From Acidobacteriaceae bacterium KBS 146 (lineage in GTDB: Bacteria; Acidobacteriota; Terriglobia; Terriglobales; Acidobacteriaceae): a stretch of 64,000 bases of DNA. The stretch is from NCBI GenBank assembly GCA_000688615.1, contig JHVA01000001.1:2108001-2172000 (forward strand), written 5' to 3'. A model generated the notes under the pieces. It did no database searches. It was not told the DNA's origin and saw only the letters and a program-made list of their open reading frames with translations. The translations under genes and the position numbers were made by a program. This document shows, one piece after another, positions 25,790-44,168 of this stretch (position 1 is its first letter; each line of letters begins with the position of its first letter).

Positions 25790-26875
25790 TCAGTCGCGCC
25801 AGATGGGAAGCACCTCAGGATCGGAGATGCGAAGGTCCTTCAGGAGATCGTGATGCGGGCTGAGACTGCAGACCGGATCGATGGCGTTAGGATCGCCGGT
25901 CATCAGAAAGGCCTGGCAACGGCAGCCGCCAAAGTCTCGCTCCTTCCGCGGACAGGAGAGACAGGTCGGAGACATCCAATCATCTCCGCGAAAGCGCTGA
26001 AAGGCGGAAGATGATTGCCAGATCCATGCGAGGTCGTGGTCGCGAACGTTGTCAAAGGTCATTCCCGGGATAATGGCGGCGGAATGGCACGGCAGCGCCT
26101 GGCCTGCCGGATCGATCAACATCATCTGGCGACCCCAGCCACCGACGCACGCTTTGGGAAAACTTCCGAAGTAGTCAGGGAAGACCGCTTCAACATGGAT
26201 CTTTCCCTTCAGACGTTCCTTCGCGGCCTCGACGATGGGAATCGAGCGCTCAACCTGTTCCTGGGTCGGCATCAGCAGCGAACGATTCTTCAGCGCCCAG
26301 CCGTAGTACTGCACATGAGCGATCTCAAGCCGGTCCGGGTGGAGATCTTCTGCCAGCGCGATAAACTCTGCCAGCCGGTCAAGATTCATTCGATGAACCA
26401 CGAGATTGATCGTGAACGCCAGATGGAATCGCTTGAGCACCGGCACCAGAGCCAGTTTGATGGCGTGGGCCCGAGTTCCTGCAATGTGATTTGCAGACGT
26501 CTCTTCGAGATCCTGAAAGCTAAGCTGGAGATGTTCCAACCCTGATTCGACCAGCGTCGCCAATCGCTCTTCCGTCATGCCCACACCAGAGGTGATCATG
26601 TTGACATAGAGGCCGGCATCTCTCCCCGCGCGGATCAGCTCGGGAAGATCACGACGAGCCAGCGGTTCTCCGCCCGTCAGATGCAGGTGCAAAACCCCCA
26701 TCTGCGCAGCCTGATGAAAGACCCGCCTCCAGTCCTCCGTCGAAAGCTCTGTCTCCGCCCGCTGCATCTCGAGCGGGTTTGAGCAGTAGAGGCAGTGCAG
26801 CGGACAACGATGCGTCACCTCCGCAATCAACGAAAGTGGCGTGCTCAACGGCGATATGGCGTTAGACGAGGTCAT
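25790..26875 (-). CDS. pqqE: PQQ biosynthesis radical SAM enzyme PqqE
   Basis: 361 residues. The radical-SAM motif is CPLHCLYC near residue 24, followed by LTGGEPLARRDLPEL. A C-terminal SPASM region includes CVGGWGRQMMLIDPAG, PTCLSCPRKERDFGGCRC and a final VCSL cysteine for the auxiliary clusters. PqqE cross-links the Glu and Tyr side chains of PqqA bound to PqqD, the first step of pyrroloquinoline quinone synthesis. It begins two bases after the pqqD stop, with AAGGA about nine bases upstream. All expected cysteine sets appear present. Confidence 0.95.
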   Translation of the reverse strand: MTSSNAISPLSTPLSLIAEVTHRCPLHCLYCSNPLEMQRAETELSTEDWRRVFHQAAQMGVLHLHLTGGEPLARRDLPELIRAGRDAGLYVNMITSGVGMTEERLATLVESGLEHLQLSFQDLEETSANHIAGTRAHAIKLALVPVLKRFHLAFTINLVVHRMNLDRLAEFIALAEDLHPDRLEIAHVQYYGWALKNRSLLMPTQEQVERSIPIVEAAKERLKGKIHVEAVFPDYFGSFPKACVGGWGRQMMLIDPAGQALPCHSAAIIPGMTFDNVRDHDLAWIWQSSSAFQRFRGDDWMSPTCLSCPRKERDFGGCRCQAFLMTGDPNAIDPVCSLSPHHDLLKDLRISDPEVLPIWRD

Positions 26876-26877
26876 AC

Positions 26878-27138
26878 TCAGGTCCTTACGACGCCCCTTT
26901 GCTGCAACCGATCCAGCAGCCCCAGAACATCACGCTGCACTTCGACCGCATCGGCTCCCTCAAACTGCTGGAGCAGATCTGTAACCACATCGGTTACGTT
27001 TCGTTTGCCATCCAGCATCCGGAGAATCTCTCGCGTGGGTCCGGTCAGGTTGAGGGTTCCTTCCGGGATCAGCAACACGCTCTCGGTGGGATGCAAACGG
27101 CATCCGGGTGCAAGACGAGGAATTGAATTCAGCTCCAT
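26878..27138 (-). CDS. pqqD: PQQ biosynthesis peptide chaperone PqqD
   Basis: 86 residues from the ATG at 27136-27138, with GGAAGG seven bases upstream; a TTG two codons earlier is less likely. PRLAPGCRLHPTESVLLIPE, LNLTGPTREILRMLDGKRNV and a C-terminal LDRLQQRGVV are the typical PqqD winged-helix (RRE) fold. It binds the PqqA peptide and presents it to PqqE. Length is normal for the family. It lies between pqqC and pqqE in the operon. Confidence 0.94.
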   Translation of the reverse strand: MELNSIPRLAPGCRLHPTESVLLIPEGTLNLTGPTREILRMLDGKRNVTDVVTDLLQQFEGADAVEVQRDVLGLLDRLQQRGVVRT

Positions 27139-27157
27139 CCGCAAACCTTCCTATCGT

Positions 27158-27913
27158 TCATGCGCACTCCGGGACAAAAGCTCCCGGAGGAATATTGCCG
27201 GGCAACACGTAGGCGTAGTCGATGGCGTCGAGCTGTGCCCACAGAATGGAGCATTTTGCTTCGAGCGCGCCGATCACCTGCTCCTGCTGCTTGCGTGTAG
27301 TCGCGTGGGTCGCGACGTAGTCAAAGGCGAAGTCTGCGTCTTCAGGTGCCTGTGTCAGACGGCCTTCGAAGTACGCCAACCCCGGCACAAGAAAGGGATA
27401 ATGGAGCCTCATCTGATCCATTCGCAGCGAGATCAGGTCGCGCGAGAACAGCTCCGTCAACGAAGACGCTACCGCCACCAGCAAGGAGCTATCCCGCACC
27501 AGCGCAAGGTAAGCATCGACAGCGTAGCGCACACCCGGCAGGACTCCGGTACACGGAATCACCTGTTCGCGGTTAAGTCCGGAGGCCTCGGCGAGTCGAA
27601 TCCACTTCTCGACGCCACCATAGCCATCCTTGTCTCCATCATGGTCGAGGATGCGCTTTCTCCATGCGCGGCGAAATGCGGGGTCTTCGCTCTTTGCAAG
27701 GAGCAGGGAGTCCTTAATCGGAATACGGCTCTGGTAGTAGTAACGATTGAGGGCCCACGCCTGCAACTGCCCACGGGTCAGTTTGCCCGCGTGCATGCGC
27801 AGGTGAAAAGGATGCCGATGGTGATAGCGGCTGTCACCAACCGCCTGCAGACGCTGTCGTAACTCCTGCCGCGAGAGCAAGGCGCTCTCCGTGTCTACGT
27901 TCGCTGTCGTCAT
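27158..27913 (-). CDS. pqqC: Pyrroloquinoline-quinone synthase PqqC
   Basis: 251 residues from the ATG at 27911-27913, which overlaps the pqqB stop as ATGA; the open frame upstream adds 12 residues inside pqqB. YHHRHPFHLRMHAGKLTRGQ, QAWALNRYYYQSRIPIKD and RILDHDGDKDGYGGVEKWIR are diagnostic of PqqC. It is a cofactor-free oxidase that closes the second ring and performs the eight-electron oxidation to PQQ. The catalytic His/Arg/Tyr region and the C-terminal helix appear intact. Confidence 0.95.
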   Translation of the reverse strand: MTTANVDTESALLSRQELRQRLQAVGDSRYHHRHPFHLRMHAGKLTRGQLQAWALNRYYYQSRIPIKDSLLLAKSEDPAFRRAWRKRILDHDGDKDGYGGVEKWIRLAEASGLNREQVIPCTGVLPGVRYAVDAYLALVRDSSLLVAVASSLTELFSRDLISLRMDQMRLHYPFLVPGLAYFEGRLTQAPEDADFAFDYVATHATTRKQQEQVIGALEAKCSILWAQLDAIDYAYVLPGNIPPGAFVPECA

Positions 27914-28821
27914 TGATCCAGTTGCCATCCGTCGTGTGCCACCTGCCATCCCGCGTCCAGCACTGCGCGATGTTCCACGCTGTTGCTATCGAGGATGGGA
28001 TTTGTATTGTTAATATGGACGAAGATCCTGCCCGGAAAGTCTAGGTCCGCGAGCAGGGCGATTGTGCCGTCGTCGCCACTCAGGGGTACATGGCCGATGG
28101 ATCGGGCCAGCGGGGTTCCGGCGTGCGTCCGGTTGAGTTCGGCATCGCTCCAGAAGGTTCCATCCACCAGGACGGTGTCGCAGGTGCGGTAGATCGCACG
28201 AAGCTCTTCGGTGATCTCGGGAAGCGCTGGCGTATATGCGATCTTGCGGCCGTCTTTTTCCAGCAACAATCCAAGACTTGCCTGTCCCGGTTCCCCGGTA
28301 TCGAGTTCCTTCGCATAGAAGGGGAGTGAACCCTCGAGCGGAATGGGCGTGCAGAGGATTCCAGAATCTCCCAGCAAAAAGCTTTGGCCGGGAACAATCT
28401 CGGCCCAGGTCAACTGCCCGGGGATACGCTGCAACATGCGGAAGAATGAGTTCGCTTCAAGAGTCCTGCGCACCAGCGACGTTGCGTAAATCGTCAACGG
28501 CTGGAACTCACGAAGTAGTAAAACGCCAAGGACCTGATCCAGATCGGCGCTGGTCAGCACAATGCCTTTGATAGGCGTATTTCTGCGTCCGAACTCGGGC
28601 GAAGGTTGTAGCTCAGGGTTAGCTTCGATCTGAAATCGGAGATCGGGAGAGGCGTTCAAAAGGAACCAGCCTTTTCCGTCTCCGGAGACGATGGCCTGCA
28701 GTTGGAGACGCGGGGCCACGCTAAGAGGTCGTGTTCTGCTCAACACACAAAGAGTGCAAGCGCAGTTCCACTGGGGAACGCCACCGCCGGCGGCGGTCCC
28801 CAGCATCTTGAAAAAGAACAT
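27910..28821 (-). CDS. pqqB: PQQ biosynthesis hydroxylase PqqB
   Basis: 303 residues, a metallo-beta-lactamase fold protein: AAGGGVPQWNCACTLC near the N-terminus is the PqqB variant signature, with two cysteines expected to bind a zinc. VLTSADLDQVLGVLLLREF and FVHINNTNPILDSNSVEH supply the iron-site residues. PqqB hydroxylates the cross-linked Glu-Tyr intermediate. The ATG follows the pqqA stop by only three bases with a poor ribosome binding site, so its translation probably depends on that of pqqA. Its stop overlaps the pqqC start. Confidence 0.95.
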   Translation of the reverse strand: MFFFKMLGTAAGGGVPQWNCACTLCVLSRTRPLSVAPRLQLQAIVSGDGKGWFLLNASPDLRFQIEANPELQPSPEFGRRNTPIKGIVLTSADLDQVLGVLLLREFQPLTIYATSLVRRTLEANSFFRMLQRIPGQLTWAEIVPGQSFLLGDSGILCTPIPLEGSLPFYAKELDTGEPGQASLGLLLEKDGRKIAYTPALPEITEELRAIYRTCDTVLVDGTFWSDAELNRTHAGTPLARSIGHVPLSGDDGTIALLADLDFPGRIFVHINNTNPILDSNSVEHRAVLDAGWQVAHDGWQLDQ

Positions 28822-28824
28822 TCT

Positions 28825-28905
28825 TTAGCGTTCTGCAGGGGCGTAGCAGTTGATCTCGCAAGCAAGGCAAACTTCCTGGAAATCGGGACGTGTCCATGTC
28901 TTCAT
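28825..28905 (-). CDS. pqqA: PQQ precursor peptide PqqA (26 residues)
   Basis: The minus strand from ATG 28903-28905 reads MKTWTRPDFQEVCLACEINC followed by YAPAER and a TAA. Glu17 and Tyr21 give the ExxxY motif that PqqE joins to make PQQ; a Trp-Thr-Xaa-Pro start and 26-residue length are also typical. AGGAGA lies eight bases upstream. The stop is three bases before pqqB. Three cysteines (13, 16 and 20) flank the crosslink site, which is unusual compared with the Met/Leu-rich peptides I know. It is too short for normal ORF calling. Confidence 0.93.
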   Translation of the reverse strand: MKTWTRPDFQEVCLACEINCYAPAER

Positions 28906-29042
28906 CAGTGATTCTCCTGTTCTTCGGATCAATCCAGAGGGATCGCTACCCTTGCCTCACCCACCGGAATGGTAACCGGAATTGTACCTAACTTTAAGGA
29001 CGACTGGGAATGGAAGTGGTTAGCTTGTCTGACCACCAAGAC

Positions 29043-30646: not shown

Positions 30647-31837
30647 TTAACCGAGGCGGAGCTGCGGAGTTGCTCCCAGTGTATCGGGCGCAAACTTCCC
30701 CGCGACAAACTTTGGCCAGGCCGCAGCCGCAATCATCGCAGCGTTATCTGTTGATAAGGCGAGCGACGGAAACGCGATCGGGAGCACTCGTTGATCCGCC
30801 TCGGACTGGAAACGCCGCCTCAATTCGCTGTTCGCGGCCACTCCCCCCGAGACGACGATCCCTCTCGCCCCAAAGACCTCTGCAGCGGCGAACGTCTGGC
30901 GAAGCAGGTTGCCGACCACGGCGTATTGAAAAGACGCGATCAGGTCCAGCGTTTGGGAGTCGCACAACGCTGCAGCCTGAACGGATCGCGGTCCCCACTC
31001 CGGGTGGTCCGCTAAGACCTTGCGCCGTTCCTCGACACGCTCACGCATCCCGTGCGTTTCAACGTAGCGCAGCACGGCGGTTTTGATGCCGCTGAAGGAG
31101 AAGTCGAAGTTCTGCTGTTCAGAAGGGTTGGCAAACTCTTTTTTCCCGGAAGGCGAAGCAAACGAGCTGTCTTCCCGATGCCCGCGAGACCTGATCCTGC
31201 CGAAACGGAACGGCACAGCACGCGGATTCCCCCTCGCGGCTAGAGCGTCGATCCAGGGTCCGCCGGGGTATCCCAGGCCAAGCAGCTTCGCAACCTTGTC
31301 ATAGGCCTCACCGGCGGCATCGTCCACGGTACGCCCTACGTTGCGGTACCGCCAGGCACCCTCTTTGCTGAGATTGGCAAGATAAAGATGCGTATGGCCT
31401 CCTGAGACCACCAGCGCGAGCAGGGGAAGCTCCATCGCCATTTCGCTGCGCTGTCGTGCCTCCATCAGCACGGCATGAATGTGCCCCTCAAGATGGTTTA
31501 CCCCGATCAAAGGCTTGCTGAGCCCGAAGCTCAAGGCTTTGGCGTAGGTAATGCCGACCAGAAGCGCCCCAGCCAGTCCTGGGCCTTCGGTAACGGCGAT
31601 GGCGTCGAGGTCCTCAAACGCGACTCCGGCCTGTTCCATCGCGGCCCGAACCACCGGGACGACATTGCGGAGATGCTCGCGAGAGGCCAGCTCCGGGACC
31701 ACACCGCCGTAGTTTGCGTGCAGGTTCATCTGCGAAGCGACGATGTTGGAGAGCGCCTCGCCTCCAGCACGGACCACCGCCGCGGCCGTCTCGTCGCAGG
31801 AGCTCTCGATGCCCAGAATCAGCCCGCTTCGCTCCAT
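30647..31837 (-). CDS. tsaD: tRNA N6-threonylcarbamoyladenosine synthase subunit TsaD
   Basis: 396 residues from the ATG at 31835-31837 (MERSGLILGIESSCDETAAA); an ATG seven codons upstream at 31856-31858 with AAAGAG beside it is an alternative. The ASKHA-fold kinase-like motif SCDETAAAVV and the metal-binding HLEGHIHAVLM are diagnostic. TsaD, with TsaB and TsaE, makes t6A37 in ANN-decoding tRNAs. An insertion of about 25 residues (around GHREDSSFASPSGKKEF) precedes the FDFSFSGIKTAVL motif. The gene is divergent from the cca-type gene with roughly 40 bases between starts. Confidence 0.94.
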   Translation of the reverse strand: MERSGLILGIESSCDETAAAVVRAGGEALSNIVASQMNLHANYGGVVPELASREHLRNVVPVVRAAMEQAGVAFEDLDAIAVTEGPGLAGALLVGITYAKALSFGLSKPLIGVNHLEGHIHAVLMEARQRSEMAMELPLLALVVSGGHTHLYLANLSKEGAWRYRNVGRTVDDAAGEAYDKVAKLLGLGYPGGPWIDALAARGNPRAVPFRFGRIRSRGHREDSSFASPSGKKEFANPSEQQNFDFSFSGIKTAVLRYVETHGMRERVEERRKVLADHPEWGPRSVQAAALCDSQTLDLIASFQYAVVGNLLRQTFAAAEVFGARGIVVSGGVAANSELRRRFQSEADQRVLPIAFPSLALSTDNAAMIAAAAWPKFVAGKFAPDTLGATPQLRLG

Positions 31838-31880
31838 GGTCTGGTCGTTCTCGCGCATCTCTTTATCATAGGGGAGCAGG

Positions 31881-33266
31881 ATGGCTGAGTCGGAAAACCC
31901 GAAGTATCTTGCCGCTCGTGAGATCGCCAACAGGCTTCGCGCGGCGGGCCACCAGGCTTACCTGGCGGGCGGCTGCGTGCGCGATCTGCTGCTTGGACTC
32001 ATCCCCAAGGACTACGACGTCGCCACTTCCGCAACTCCGGATACGGTCCTCTCTTTGTTCCGCGAAAAGAAAGCGCTGACCGTAGGGGCCCACTTCGGGG
32101 TGGTCCTGGTGTGTGAGCCGGATGGGATTGCTACGGAGGTGGCAACCTTTCGCAATGATGGCGCCTACACAGACGGCCGCAGGCCCGATTCAGTACGTTT
32201 CTCCACCGATCCGCGCGAGGACGTTCGACGTCGCGACTTCACCATCAATGGCATGTTGCTGGATAACGAGATCTACGACCGCACCGGGGATGTGGCCGAG
32301 GCAACGCTGGACTTCGTCGGCGGTCGCGACGACCTGAGCTCTCGAGTTGTGCGCGCCATTGGCGATCCGTCTCTTCGTTTCCAGGAAGATAAACTTCGCA
32401 TGCTTCGCGGAGTGCGCTTTGCAGCACGCCTCGGATTCGCGATCGATCCCGGAACTGCTGCCGGCATTCGCCGGTTGGCCAGCCAGGTCACGGTGGTCAG
32501 CCCCGAACGCATACGCGACGAGGTAAGCCTCATCCTGACGGAAGGAAGTGCACGGGTTGGCTTCGAATTGCTCGATCAGCTTGGCCTACTCCTCCATATC
32601 CTGCCGGAGATTACAAAGCTGCATGGCGTCGAGCAACCTCCGGAGTATCACCCTGAGGGAGATGTCTGGGTTCACACGATGCTCCTGCTCGAGAAGCTGC
32701 CTCGCGGAGCGTCATCGACACTCGCCTGGGGAGCCCTGCTTCACGATGTAGGAAAACCTGCAACCTTCCGCGCCCCCGATCCGAACGATCCCAAGGACCG
32801 GATCCGTTTCAACGGACACGTGGAGGTGGGAGTAAGGATCGCGGAAGAGATTCTCTCGCGCCTCCGTTTCTCCAACGAAGAGATCGACCAGATTACGGCT
32901 CTCGTTAAAAATCACATGCGCTTTGGCGATGTGCGCCACATGCGCGAAGCCACACTGAAGCGCTTCCTCCGTCTGCGCCATTTCGACGAGCACCTTGCGC
33001 TGCATCGCATGGACTGCCTCTCTTCGCATTGCGACCTCAGTCTCTACGATTTTGCCAAAGAGAAGTACGAGACGGTCCCGCCGGAATCGATACAGCCAAA
33101 GCCTCTGCTGTCGGGTCACGAACTGATCTCGGCAGGCTACGCTCCGGGGCCTCGGTTTAAAAAGATGCTGGAAGCCGCTGAAGATGCACAGCTGGAAGGT
33201 ACGGTACGAACTGCTGCCGAAGCTCTTCGCTTCGTACAGGATCGCTTTGGAGCCCCCACGAAATAG
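31881..33266 (+). CDS. CCA-adding enzyme/poly(A) polymerase family nucleotidyltransferase with HD domain
   Basis: 461 residues. The class II nucleotidyltransferase head is AYLAGGCVRDLLLG (residues 27-39) with catalytic DYD at 44-46. The RRDFTINGM and RLRYLRGVRFAARLGF-like (LRMLRGVRFAARLGF) segments bind nucleotide and RNA. A C-terminal HD domain (HTMLLLEKLPRG, LLHDVGKPATF) makes this the CCA tRNA nucleotidyltransferase/PcnB type with phosphohydrolase activity. It adds or repairs tRNA 3' CCA, or adds poly(A); the two cannot be separated from sequence alone. GGGGAG precedes the ATG. Confidence 0.93.
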   Translation: MAESENPKYLAAREIANRLRAAGHQAYLAGGCVRDLLLGLIPKDYDVATSATPDTVLSLFREKKALTVGAHFGVVLVCEPDGIATEVATFRNDGAYTDGRRPDSVRFSTDPREDVRRRDFTINGMLLDNEIYDRTGDVAEATLDFVGGRDDLSSRVVRAIGDPSLRFQEDKLRMLRGVRFAARLGFAIDPGTAAGIRRLASQVTVVSPERIRDEVSLILTEGSARVGFELLDQLGLLLHILPEITKLHGVEQPPEYHPEGDVWVHTMLLLEKLPRGASSTLAWGALLHDVGKPATFRAPDPNDPKDRIRFNGHVEVGVRIAEEILSRLRFSNEEIDQITALVKNHMRFGDVRHMREATLKRFLRLRHFDEHLALHRMDCLSSHCDLSLYDFAKEKYETVPPESIQPKPLLSGHELISAGYAPGPRFKKMLEAAEDAQLEGTVRTAAEALRFVQDRFGAPTK

Positions 33267-41039: not shown

Positions 41040-41423
41040 ATGCTCGCACAGGCTGAACTCCTCGCCTTCATTCCCACCGTCGATGCCGATCGTGCCCGCC
41101 GCTTCTATGTCGATAGCCTCGGCCTCGCCTTCGTCACCGACGACCCTTTTGCCATCACCGTTCGCTCCGGCCAAACAGACATTCGCATCGTCCGCATCGG
41201 AGCCTTCAATCCTTCGCCCCATACCATACTTGGCTGGGAGGTGAAAGACATCGAGGCTACGGTCCGGCAGTTCACCCTCGCCGGAATCACCTTCGAACGC
41301 TATCCTTTTTTAGAACAGGACGCCAACGGGATCTGGTCCGATTCCGAAAGGCTAGCTAAAGTCGCATGGTTTAAAGACCCCGACGGGAACGTCCTCTCCC
41401 TCTCTCAGCACGTCGAGCAGTAG
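41040..41423 (+). CDS. VOC (glyoxalase/bleomycin-resistance) family protein
   Basis: 127 residues from the ATG at 41040, with GGAAGGAG six bases upstream; this is in frame with a longer reading frame that runs through the GNAT gene. LLAFIPTVDADRARRFYVDS and the KVAWFKDPDGNVLSLSQHV ending show the paired beta-alpha-beta-beta-beta VOC units. Such proteins bind a divalent metal and act on small electrophiles or quinols, or bind antibiotics. It is the last gene of the formate dehydrogenase cluster, convergent with the MarR operon. Confidence 0.88.
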   Translation: MLAQAELLAFIPTVDADRARRFYVDSLGLAFVTDDPFAITVRSGQTDIRIVRIGAFNPSPHTILGWEVKDIEATVRQFTLAGITFERYPFLEQDANGIWSDSERLAKVAWFKDPDGNVLSLSQHVEQ

Positions 41424-41442
41424 GACGAACACCGATAACCCT

Positions 41443-41787
41443 TCACTCGCCTCTTTTCTTCCACTCTGAAAAGAGTGGAGCTGCATCTCCTGCTTTGATC
41501 TCCTTGCCGTCGTTCGAGATAATGCCGGCTGCCGTCCGAGGACAGCAAATCGTCGAGTACGCTCCGAACTCGAATAAGACACCTCGCTCTCCCGCCCGCC
41601 CAACCCTCACGCGGTCGCCATACGTCTCAAAAAAACGGCCAGGCTTAATCCCCCGGGCAAATTGGATCGTGCCCGGAATCTGCAGTACGTCTAACCAGCC
41701 GACGAATTGCCCCGGCTTCTGCTCCCTAATGTGAACCACCCTGCCGCTCGAAGTCCACACTCCAGCAATCGCGTCGTGAGTCTTCAT
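41443..41787 (-). CDS. Hypothetical protein, last gene of MarR operon
   Basis: 114 residues from the ATG at 41785-41787 (MKTHDAIAGVWTSSGRVVHI), with a GGGGGGTGGA ribosome binding site. A GTG at 41812-41814 directly after the upstream stop is an alternative. The IAGVWTSSG opening and beta-rich sequence (IREQKPGQFVGWLDVLQI, GDRVRVGRAGERGVLFEF) suggest a small lipocalin- or calycin-like barrel; the upstream gene opens similarly (SLSGLWETSNG). I do not recognise the family. It has no signal peptide. Confidence 0.6.
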   Translation of the reverse strand: MKTHDAIAGVWTSSGRVVHIREQKPGQFVGWLDVLQIPGTIQFARGIKPGRFFETYGDRVRVGRAGERGVLFEFGAYSTICCPRTAAGIISNDGKEIKAGDAAPLFSEWKKRGE

Positions 41788-41814
41788 TCCACCCCCCGGG
41801 CGATTCAGCGTCAC

Positions 41815-42321
41815 CTACTCATCGAAGTTTCCCCGATGGAAATGTCCCACCCAGCAGTCGTTTTCCTTCTTCCTCAGATCCAGATCCACAGCCAGCATCC
41901 CCGCGACCGGAGGGACCAAATGCAGTACCAGATGCCCATCCTCGATCATCACCGCCGCGGCTCCTGCGCTATCTGAGAAATAATTCTCCTCTCCAACCGA
42001 GAGCTCAGCTCCCTTCTGCTCATACATCCCGAGGTTTAGATACTCCCACTGCTGTTCCACCCCATTCAGCGTCCTGCCATCAGTCTTCGCATCCGGCGCG
42101 ACTGAAGTCCCGAGCATTATGTGAATCCCAACGAATCCACCATGCCCATTCGAGGTCTCCCACAAACCCGACAGGCTCCCCGGATCAATCACAACTTTGC
42201 GCCGATAAGGACTGGAATCCGGTGAGGCATTCCCCGTCTGCGCCGGAACCAGCGGAACAGCGACGAAGATAAAAGCCGCACACAGAATCGTCGCAGACCT
42301 CAGCCCACCACCAGCTTCCAT
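41815..42321 (-). CDS. Secreted hypothetical protein of MarR operon
   Basis: 168 residues with a signal peptide (SATILCAAFIFVAVPLVPA, then QTG). The mature part begins with a Pro/Ser-rich linker, then GSLSGLWETSNGHGGFVGIH and regular beta strands (GHLVLHLVPPVAGMLAVDLD). Like its neighbour it has an early Gly-Xaa-Trp motif, as in lipocalin-like folds, but I cannot name a family. It is 16 bases downstream of the MarR gene and its stop directly precedes the last gene. Its location should be periplasmic. Confidence 0.62.
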   Translation of the reverse strand: MEAGGGLRSATILCAAFIFVAVPLVPAQTGNASPDSSPYRRKVVIDPGSLSGLWETSNGHGGFVGIHIMLGTSVAPDAKTDGRTLNGVEQQWEYLNLGMYEQKGAELSVGEENYFSDSAGAAAVMIEDGHLVLHLVPPVAGMLAVDLDLRKKENDCWVGHFHRGNFDE

Positions 42322-42337
42322 GCATCTAAAGACACCG

Positions 42338-42793
42338 CTACTCCTGCTTTCGTTCCCCTGCTCCCGCCACGGCTTTGTTCATGGCCTCGAGACTTGCCCA
42401 CATCCCGGCCCATTCCCGTTCCGTCATTCCCTTGCGCAGCTCTTCTCCTGCCCTGCGCCACGCCGGTCGCGCCTCTCGCAACTTCGCTCTTCCCGCCGCA
42501 GTCAAAGAGATGCTTCTTCGCCGCGCATCCTTCCCAGGCGCCGATTCCACCCAACCTCTTTCTCGCAGCAGCTTCAGGTTGCGAGAGAGCGTCGTCTTAT
42601 CCATCCCCAGCATCTGCCCCAGCGACGCCTGTCCCTTGTCCTGCGCCGCATCGAGTGTCATCAGCAGCGCAAACTGCGCAGCTTCGATGCCTGCCTCCGA
42701 CAGACAGGCATCGTAAAACTGCGTCATCAGCCGAGCCGTGCGCCTTGTCGCCGCCAGCGCGCATGGCGCATCCTCTATTCGTCTTCCATTCAT
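42338..42793 (-). CDS. MarR-family transcriptional regulator
   Basis: 151 residues from the ATG at 42791-42793 (MNGRRIEDAPCALAATRRTA). The winged helix-turn-helix is at about residues 55-105: ASLGQMLGMDKTTLSRNLKL as HTH, DARRRSISLTAAG as the wing. N- and C-terminal helices form the dimer interface. Cys11 and Cys29 in the dimerisation helices could sense electrophiles or oxidants. It is the second gene of a four-gene operon, and the first gene is preceded by palindromes of the size MarR dimers bind, so auto-repression is likely. Ligand unknown. Confidence 0.9.
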   Translation of the reverse strand: MNGRRIEDAPCALAATRRTARLMTQFYDACLSEAGIEAAQFALLMTLDAAQDKGQASLGQMLGMDKTTLSRNLKLLRERGWVESAPGKDARRRSISLTAAGRAKLREARPAWRRAGEELRKGMTEREWAGMWASLEAMNKAVAGAGERKQE

Positions 42794-42803
42794 TGCTTTA
42801 ACC

Positions 42804-43220
42804 CTACTTCGCTTCACTCTCTCCCGGCTGTGGCTGGGTCAGAAACCGCATAGGGGCCAGCGGCCCTACCGGAATAAACTCCAGATCAACCATCCCAGCC
42901 TTGTCCAGCGGCAACGACTCCATAATTGCCCTGGCCTCCTCTACCGTCGAGCAACGCAGGAAGAAGACCACTCCCTTGCCATCTGCTCGCGAATACCACT
43001 GACCGATCTTGCCGTTCAGATACAACAGCATCGTCTCCCGAGCCTCTTCTGGCAGCACCTTCATCAGATCGGACAGACTCACGCTCGGCTTTCGTGTGAG
43101 AAGCACCATCACATCGGTTACCTGCACAGGAGGAGGCGAAGGCACAGCGGCTGCCAGTGGCTGTGCCTGCATACCCATACCGGCACTAAGAACAAGTGCA
43201 GAAAGACTGAGAAGGCTCAT
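42804..43220 (-). CDS. Secreted YCII/muconolactone-isomerase-like protein, first gene of MarR operon
   Basis: 138 residues. A signal peptide (SLLSLSALVLSAGMGMQAQP) is followed by a ferredoxin-like alpha-beta domain (VTDVMVLLTRKPSVSLSDLM, GVVFFLRCSTVEEARAIMES, VDLEFIPVGPLAPMRFL). The DLEFIPVGPLAPMRFL ending with an EEARAIMESLPL helix matches dimeric YCII and muconolactone delta-isomerase-like proteins. Those are cytoplasmic, so the export signal is unusual. AAAGGAG precedes the ATG, and an 18-bp palindrome lies directly upstream. Function unknown. Confidence 0.72.
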   Translation of the reverse strand: MSLLSLSALVLSAGMGMQAQPLAAAVPSPPPVQVTDVMVLLTRKPSVSLSDLMKVLPEEARETMLLYLNGKIGQWYSRADGKGVVFFLRCSTVEEARAIMESLPLDKAGMVDLEFIPVGPLAPMRFLTQPQPGESEAK

Positions 43221-43231
43221 AAAACTCCTTT

Positions 43232-43249
43232 AAGTTGCATATGCAACTT
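43232..43249. promoter_or_regulatory. Perfect 18-bp palindrome, probable MarR operator
   Basis: AAGTTGCATATGCAACTT at 43232-43249 is a perfect inverted repeat. It abuts the AAAGGAG ribosome binding site of the first gene of the MarR operon, so a bound dimer would block transcript initiation or early elongation. The length and central TTGCATATGCAA fit typical MarR/SlyA operators. Its position between the operon and divergent kdsA is where auto-regulation would act. Confidence 0.78.
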
Positions 43250-43257
43250 TCTTAATT

Positions 43258-43273
43258 GTTGTAGATGCAACTT
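43258..43273. promoter_or_regulatory. Second, imperfect copy of the MarR-type operator
   Basis: GTTGTAG-ATGCAAC at 43258-43271 followed by TT repeats the right half ATGCAACTT of the first palindrome exactly and its left half with two mismatches. The centres are 24 bp apart, a little over two helical turns, which allows cooperative binding by two dimers. Confidence 0.6.
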
Positions 43274-43331
43274 TCGGGAAGATCGCTCCAAAAACTTTGC
43301 CGCCTTTCTTCGCCGTGGTCAAATATCTCTT

Positions 43332-44168
43332 GTGAGCAACGCAACCAGCCATCCCTTCGATATCGGCAACGTCTCTGTGGGCCGTGGAAAGCTCTTTCTG
43401 ATCGCGGGTCCCTGCGTCATCGAATCCGAGCAGCATGCGCGCATGATGGCTGATTCCATCCAGCGAATCACCTCTGACCTCGGCATCCCGTACATCTTCA
43501 AAGCCAGCTATGACAAAGCCAATCGCACATCGATCCATAGTTTTCGCGGACCCGGCGTAGTCGAGGGAACACGTATCCTGCGGGTCATTCGAGAGGCGAA
43601 TAACCTTCCTGTTCTAACGGACGTCCACACTGCGGAGAGCTGTGCGAAAGTCGCTGAAGCTGTGGACCTATTGCAGATTCCAGCGTTCCTCTGCCGACAG
43701 ACCGATCTTCTGATTGCAGCTGCCGAGGCCGCCCGAGAACACAACCGGGCCGTCAACATCAAGAAGGGTCAGTTCGTCGCACCCTCCGATATGCGCCATG
43801 CTGTGGAAAAAGTCCGGGAGGGCGGCTGCGCTCGCGTTTCGCTGACGGAGCGGGGGGTCAGCTTCGGATACAACAACCTGGTTGTCGATATGCGTTCGCT
43901 TCCGGTTCTGCGCAGCTTCGCTCCGGTCATCTTCGATGGAACTCATTCAGTGCAAACGCCTTCGGCAGCCAACGGGGTCTCCGGAGGACAGCCTGAATTC
44001 ATTCCGGTGCTCACCCGGGCTGCGGTGGCAGCCGGAGTGGACGGTGTCTTTCTCGAGGTCCACGACGATCCGCCCCATGCCAAATCGGACGGAGCGAATG
44101 CCCTGCACCTGAACCATCTTCGGGGCATTCTCGAACAACTTCTTGCAATTCACCAGATAGTGACCTAG
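43332..44168 (+). CDS. kdsA: 3-deoxy-8-phosphooctulonate (KDO8P) synthase
   Basis: 278 residues from a GTG at 43332 (VSNATSHPFDIGNVSVGRGK), the usual KdsA length; a much longer open frame upstream runs antisense to the MarR operon and is not coding. FLIAGPCVIESEQHARMMAD, YIFKASYDKANRTSIHSFRG, FLCRQTDLL and NIKKGQFVAPSDM are diagnostic. It condenses phosphoenolpyruvate with arabinose 5-phosphate for lipopolysaccharide Kdo. The PTG/AAGVDGVFLEVHDDPPHAKS-like end is intact. The ribosome binding site is weak. The gene is separate from other lipopolysaccharide genes. Confidence 0.95.
   Translation: MSNATSHPFDIGNVSVGRGKLFLIAGPCVIESEQHARMMADSIQRITSDLGIPYIFKASYDKANRTSIHSFRGPGVVEGTRILRVIREANNLPVLTDVHTAESCAKVAEAVDLLQIPAFLCRQTDLLIAAAEAAREHNRAVNIKKGQFVAPSDMRHAVEKVREGGCARVSLTERGVSFGYNNLVVDMRSLPVLRSFAPVIFDGTHSVQTPSAANGVSGGQPEFIPVLTRAAVAAGVDGVFLEVHDDPPHAKSDGANALHLNHLRGILEQLLAIHQIVT

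Follow-up and report, generated by a model that had tools for sequence, protein, structure and literature searches.

The first two genes of a minus-strand operon in the genome of Acidobacteriaceae bacterium KBS 146, which encode a small protein (P1) and a MarR-family regulator, are best explained as a dedicated autoregulating repressor operon with P1 as its putative effector and the third gene (P3) as a broken passenger. We put the probability of this reading at about 0.72. The comparative evidence for a dedicated pair of autoregulating MarR and predicted operator is strong, and comparison of genomes shows the P1 and MarR sequences to be inherited together. The locus lies in the window, the whole stretch of 64,000 nucleotides that was analysed. 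The genome from which it comes (5.0 Mb; G000 in the genome comparison) is that of a congener of Edaphobacter modestus DSM 18101 (G350).

Gene organization of the locus

P1 (42804..43220, minus strand), the first gene of the operon, is an open reading frame for a muconolactone-isomerase/YCII-like protein of 138 amino acids with a hydrophobic N-terminus. Based on its reading frame, Pfam and the nearest solved relative (4fx0/4fx4), the second gene (42338..42793, minus) was assigned to a MarR-family repressor of 151 amino acids carrying Cys11 and Cys29. The successive minus-strand frames (P1, MarR, 41815-42321 and 41443-41814) are separated by 10, 16 and 27 bases. The original prediction gave the same strand and spacing and counted four genes; there are three, since the last two frames are a single frame parted only by a TAG codon at 41815..41817 (minus), which aligns with a Gln codon in E. 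modestus. P3 (41443..42321, minus) is accordingly one gene of 292 codons for a two-part protein with a signal peptide and the motifs GLW and GVW, as shown by the reading frame, which continues unchanged past the stop, by unbroken homologues and by the intact gene of E. modestus. The operon therefore consists of three genes, the third being broken or read through.

The divergent neighbour kdsA (KDO-8-phosphate synthase; 43332..44168, plus) lies outside the operon. The convergent neighbour, a gene of the VOC/glyoxalase fold (41040..41423, plus), is kept at this locus and belongs to a separate transcript. No RNA element was found at the P1-MarR-P3 locus.

Elsewhere in the window an apparent pqqABCDE cluster was recognized by eye at 25790-28932 (minus), comprising a PqqA-like peptide within 28825-28932 (EINCY motif), PqqB, PqqC, a PqqD-like frame (26878-27144) and a PqqE-like frame. 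A tRNA-Val called by ARAGORN at 31188-31282 (minus) falls inside a tsaD-like frame (30647-31930) and is probably a false positive.

Conservation of the P1-MarR pair

P1 followed by MarR in adjacent tandem was identified in 13 genomes of two genera, namely G000, G350 (E. modestus), G360, G012, G033, G094, G021 and G011 in the genus of the window and G187, G206, G091, G237 and G155 in the second. Co-occurrence of P1 with this type of MarR had been proposed as a check on the original prediction, and it was found in all of these. The pair adjoins kdsA in 6/13 genomes, including that of the window, and is located elsewhere in 7/13 (G021, G011, G187, G206, G091, G237 and G155). The identity matrices of P1 and MarR are correlated (r 0.84, 0/5000 permutations), as common ancestry alone would likewise bring about. 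Comparison with E. modestus gave dN/dS values of 0.15 for P1 and 0.13 for MarR, indicating purifying selection. One genome, G028, has kept kdsA and lost P1, most of MarR and the operators. At this site (L106, 3501-3596) a 32-codon C-terminal remnant of MarR, the trace of a deletion, lies 28 bp from the start of kdsA. Searches found no relatives of either protein in phages or viruses.

Operator palindromes

The proposed operator 1 is a perfect 18-bp palindrome, AAGTTGCATATGCAACTT (43232..43249), which abuts the P1 ribosome binding site AAAGGAG, and operator 2, 24 bp upstream of it, is an imperfect copy, AAGTTGCATCTACAACAA (43256..43273); both had been described correctly from the sequence. With three or fewer mismatches allowed, AAGTTGCATATGCAACTT at 43232-43249 was the sole match in the window, with none in 100 shuffles, and each operator surpassed all of 500 shuffles. 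A 16-bp operator, RGTTGYANNTRCAACY, is present upstream of P1 as an exact match in 11 of the 12 genomes searched, the exception being G012 (15/16). Beyond the P1 promoters of these 12 genomes a single further exact site was identified, in G091; the reversed pattern, used as a control, hit three sites in total, in two genomes. Within the 5.0 Mb of the window genome the only exact match to RGTTGYANNTRCAACY is at operator 1.

The palindrome RGTTGYATATRCAACY or a close form of it occurs upstream of P1 in 12/13 tandem genomes and scored above all 500 shuffles, while G011 carries a different long palindrome that is off the consensus. Twin sites were recognized in four genomes, with offsets of 24 (window), 20 (E. 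modestus), 21 (G360) and 20 (G094). Conservation of the palindrome upstream of orthologous operons was a further check that had been suggested; its retention in 12 of 13 genomes, together with the pair itself in 13, supports the predicted self-regulated MarR operon with twin operators.

P1 relatives that have no MarR partner possess a TetR-like gene upstream and another common palindrome, AAGAGTAC..GTACTCTT, so that P1 appears as a regulated target in both arrangements. The loci at which this palindrome was seen beside TetR-preceded P1-like genes are L006, L139, L140 and L142. A convincing -10 box for P1 was not found. A block conserved at the kdsA locus, TATTTGACCA (43310-43332), lies just outside the kdsA start and could be the P1 -35 box or a kdsA promoter element. 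Literature searches for the operator core, and for a MarR operon in Edaphobacter, returned nothing relevant.

The MarR regulator and its cysteines

The regulator matched the winged-helix families PF12802 (37.3 bits, cut-off 27) and PF01047 (30.8 bits, cut-off 24.6) above their gathering scores. The closest solved sequence was 4fx0/4fx4 (E 1.3e-17), which is MosR (Rv1049) of Mycobacterium tuberculosis (PMC5823404); the nearest solved regulators were MosR (4fx0) and a Staphylococcus epidermidis MarR (5hlg/4hbl). MosR senses oxidation through a Cys10-Cys12 disulphide switch and represses a secreted oxidoreductase, and the corresponding pair of 2-Cys OhrR is Cys22/Cys127' (PMC5823404).

The window protein contains the two cysteines that had been noticed, C11 and C29, and no others. 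All 13 MarR proteins paired with P1 have Cys11, whose aligned counterpart in the MosR CxC motif is the first Cys. The motif is complete in the seven pairs located away from kdsA; in the six pairs at the kdsA locus its second Cys is Leu or Val, the window protein reading CAL with Leu13. Cys29 is common to the window, E. modestus and G360 only. Of the MosR-type CxC at the start of helix 1 the window MarR therefore has the first Cys only, and with C11 and C29 alone it does not have the N-terminal and helix 5 cysteines of a 2-Cys OhrR. Since CxC is kept in seven pairs and cut to its first Cys in six, a redox response of the window MarR is plausible by descent.

A stronger form of this idea, in which MarR acts as a genuine thiol switch of the MosR or OhrR kind and P1 as an exported antioxidant protein, is possible but doubtful. 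The invariance of Cys11, the full CxC of the seven relatives and the precedent of MosR all speak for it, and the two systems are alike in having a conserved Cys where helix 1 begins and a MarR repressor whose target, here a predicted one, is the gene of a possibly exported small protein (PMC5823404). However, the second Cys of MosR has been replaced in every kdsA-locus MarR, Cys29 is confined to three genomes and P1 of the window clade has a poor signal peptide. The targets of the two systems differ: that of MosR is called an oxidoreductase, and P1 of the window is MIase/YCII-like.

The P1 protein

No significant family match was obtained for P1 of the window, and none to Pfam PF02426. Among its relatives, the best match to the MIase family PF02426 scored 25.9 bits against a gathering cut-off of 26.7, and matches to YCII were weak. 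The P1 model has the order beta-alpha-alpha-beta-alpha-beta, suggesting a small ferredoxin-like alpha+beta fold as in muconolactone delta-isomerase (CatC) and 5-chloromuconolactone dehalogenase (ClcF), both of PF02426, and in YCII (PF03795). A fold search gave nothing at E <0.001; the best weak matches include the YciI-like HI0828 and ClcF, and a second aligner placed other ferredoxin-like folds, Lrp/AsnC among them, equally high. In a non-significant profile alignment (E 0.63), which pairs query positions 38-97 with chain positions 14-73, ClcF residue 27, the position mutated in the ClcF E27A structure entry, lies opposite Glu59, invariant in the P1 alignments. P1 differs from both families in scoring below their cut-offs and in its N-terminal hydrophobic segment, and no catechol or muconate genes stand beside it in the loci read. 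The earlier muconolactone-isomerase/YCII-like call holds at a sub-threshold level, and P1 is probably a divergent protein of this kind.

P1 had also been called secreted. P1 does begin with a hydrophobic stretch, but no basic residue precedes this, and its G360 counterpart is less hydrophobic, with Pro and Glu in it. Export is faintly suggested by the hydrophobic start and is doubtful in this clade. In other genomes P1-like genes were observed near TetR-, NmrA- and VOC-like genes (translations read by eye), which fits a role in the handling of reactive small molecules and is not proof of one.

P3, a single interrupted gene

The frames 41815-42321 and 41443-41814 share one reading frame, with a usable ATG at 41787 in the latter, and every P3 homologue in other genomes that reaches the position of the stop reads across it. 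In E. modestus DSM 18101, P1, MarR and an intact P3 follow one another in the identical order, likewise with a 16-bp gap before P3; the identities to the window are 83% for P1, 82% for MarR and 67% for P3. The dN/dS of P3 against E. modestus is 0.12 upstream of the stop and 0.26 downstream, the half behind the stop having the higher dN. Outside the signal peptide the window branch has 25 changes versus 16, which is no clear excess. Because dN/dS is below 1 on either side of the TAG and the window branch shows no clear excess, the stop is probably recent. The full-length product has probably been lost in this strain through this one nonsense codon, and the window genome yielded no further copy of P3.

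It is unlikely that P3 still functions, either as two proteins through re-initiation at GTG 41814 or ATG 41787 or through read-through of the TAG. The constraint on both sides of the stop and the unremarkable number of changes would agree with continued function, and ATG 41787 is preceded by a G-rich stretch. On the other hand, the second half lacks a signal peptide and has the higher dN, the split is seen in no homologue and the internal Met is conserved only as far as E. modestus; moreover the constraint, averaged over the whole branch, is mostly older than a recent stop. Alongside read-through and re-initiation, an assembly error at the TAG is conceivable.

The original prediction had treated the two frames as a secreted and a cytoplasmic unknown, and as two small Gly-Xaa-Trp proteins among three unassigned products. 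The two are the halves of P3, the supposed cytoplasmic protein being its C-terminal part. Their pairing with P1, which had been regarded as new, is a local accident. P3 stands beside P1-MarR in only two genomes, that of the window and that of E. modestus, and is missing from the kdsA locus in G012, G033, G094 and G360; its relatives elsewhere occur in unrelated neighbourhoods with neither P1 nor MarR near. P3 was on these grounds ruled out as a conserved partner and is, as judged from the loci compared, a later passenger outside the conserved operon. The apparent novelty of the operon arose because its third gene is broken.

Searches of Pfam, NCBIfam, PHROGs and PDB sequences gave no relevant match to P3, and its AlphaFold model (pLDDT 33) was too poor for use. 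An internal duplication, with the two Gly-x-Trp halves as repeats, was considered and rejected after profile comparison of the halves (probability 0.1). Two Cys residues are nearly invariant in P3 relatives (NNC-H and C-terminal) and may form a disulphide pair there; both are absent only in the copies of the window and E. modestus, and the relative at L094 is also without the C-terminal Cys.

Proposed regulation and comparison with known systems

In the proposed mechanism a MarR dimer would bind RGTTGYATATRCAACY between the promoter and the ribosome binding site, blocking transcription of P1, of MarR itself and, in this lineage, of P3. MarR would leave the DNA once a small compound, be it an oxidant, an electrophile or some other ligand, acted on it, probably at the invariant Cys11 or close by; the original prediction had proposed a small aromatic or an electrophile as this signal. 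P1 would be made and would convert or bind the inducing compound, and MarR produced from P1's own transcript would close the operon again.

A reading in which the operators serve chiefly to regulate the divergent kdsA, and with it envelope synthesis, while P1 and MarR are incidental is very unlikely: the kdsA start at 43332 is about 60-80 bp from the operators and kdsA is also the neighbour in the other five genomes with the pair at this locus, but the seven remaining genomes carry pair and palindrome away from kdsA, and kdsA persists in G028 after their loss.

Like the autoregulating MarR proteins YvmB/PchR and AesR, which have several inverted repeats at their own promoters (PMC4992311, PMC13413800), the regulator of the proposed P1-MarR operon would act at repeated palindromes at its own promoter. 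The regulons of YvmB/PchR and AesR hold more genes or a divergent operon, whereas here the strict operator occurs at only one promoter in the genome. The architecture of the operon is ordinary; what is new is this member, and its third gene is broken. More tentatively, a possibly exported MIase/YCII-like protein under a single-target, MosR-related Cys switch might constitute a two-gene cassette for sensing and detoxification, one that takes its operator along when it changes locus and that can exchange its MarR for a TetR regulator.

This reading of the locus sets an annotation right: what looked like two small new proteins is a single interrupted gene. With one target site per genome, it offers a clean regulator/operator pair for experiment in the acidobacteria, a phylum with few studied regulators. 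The regulators, which form a natural gradation from CxC to a single Cys over one conserved operator, may also help in asking how the signal of a MarR protein changes.
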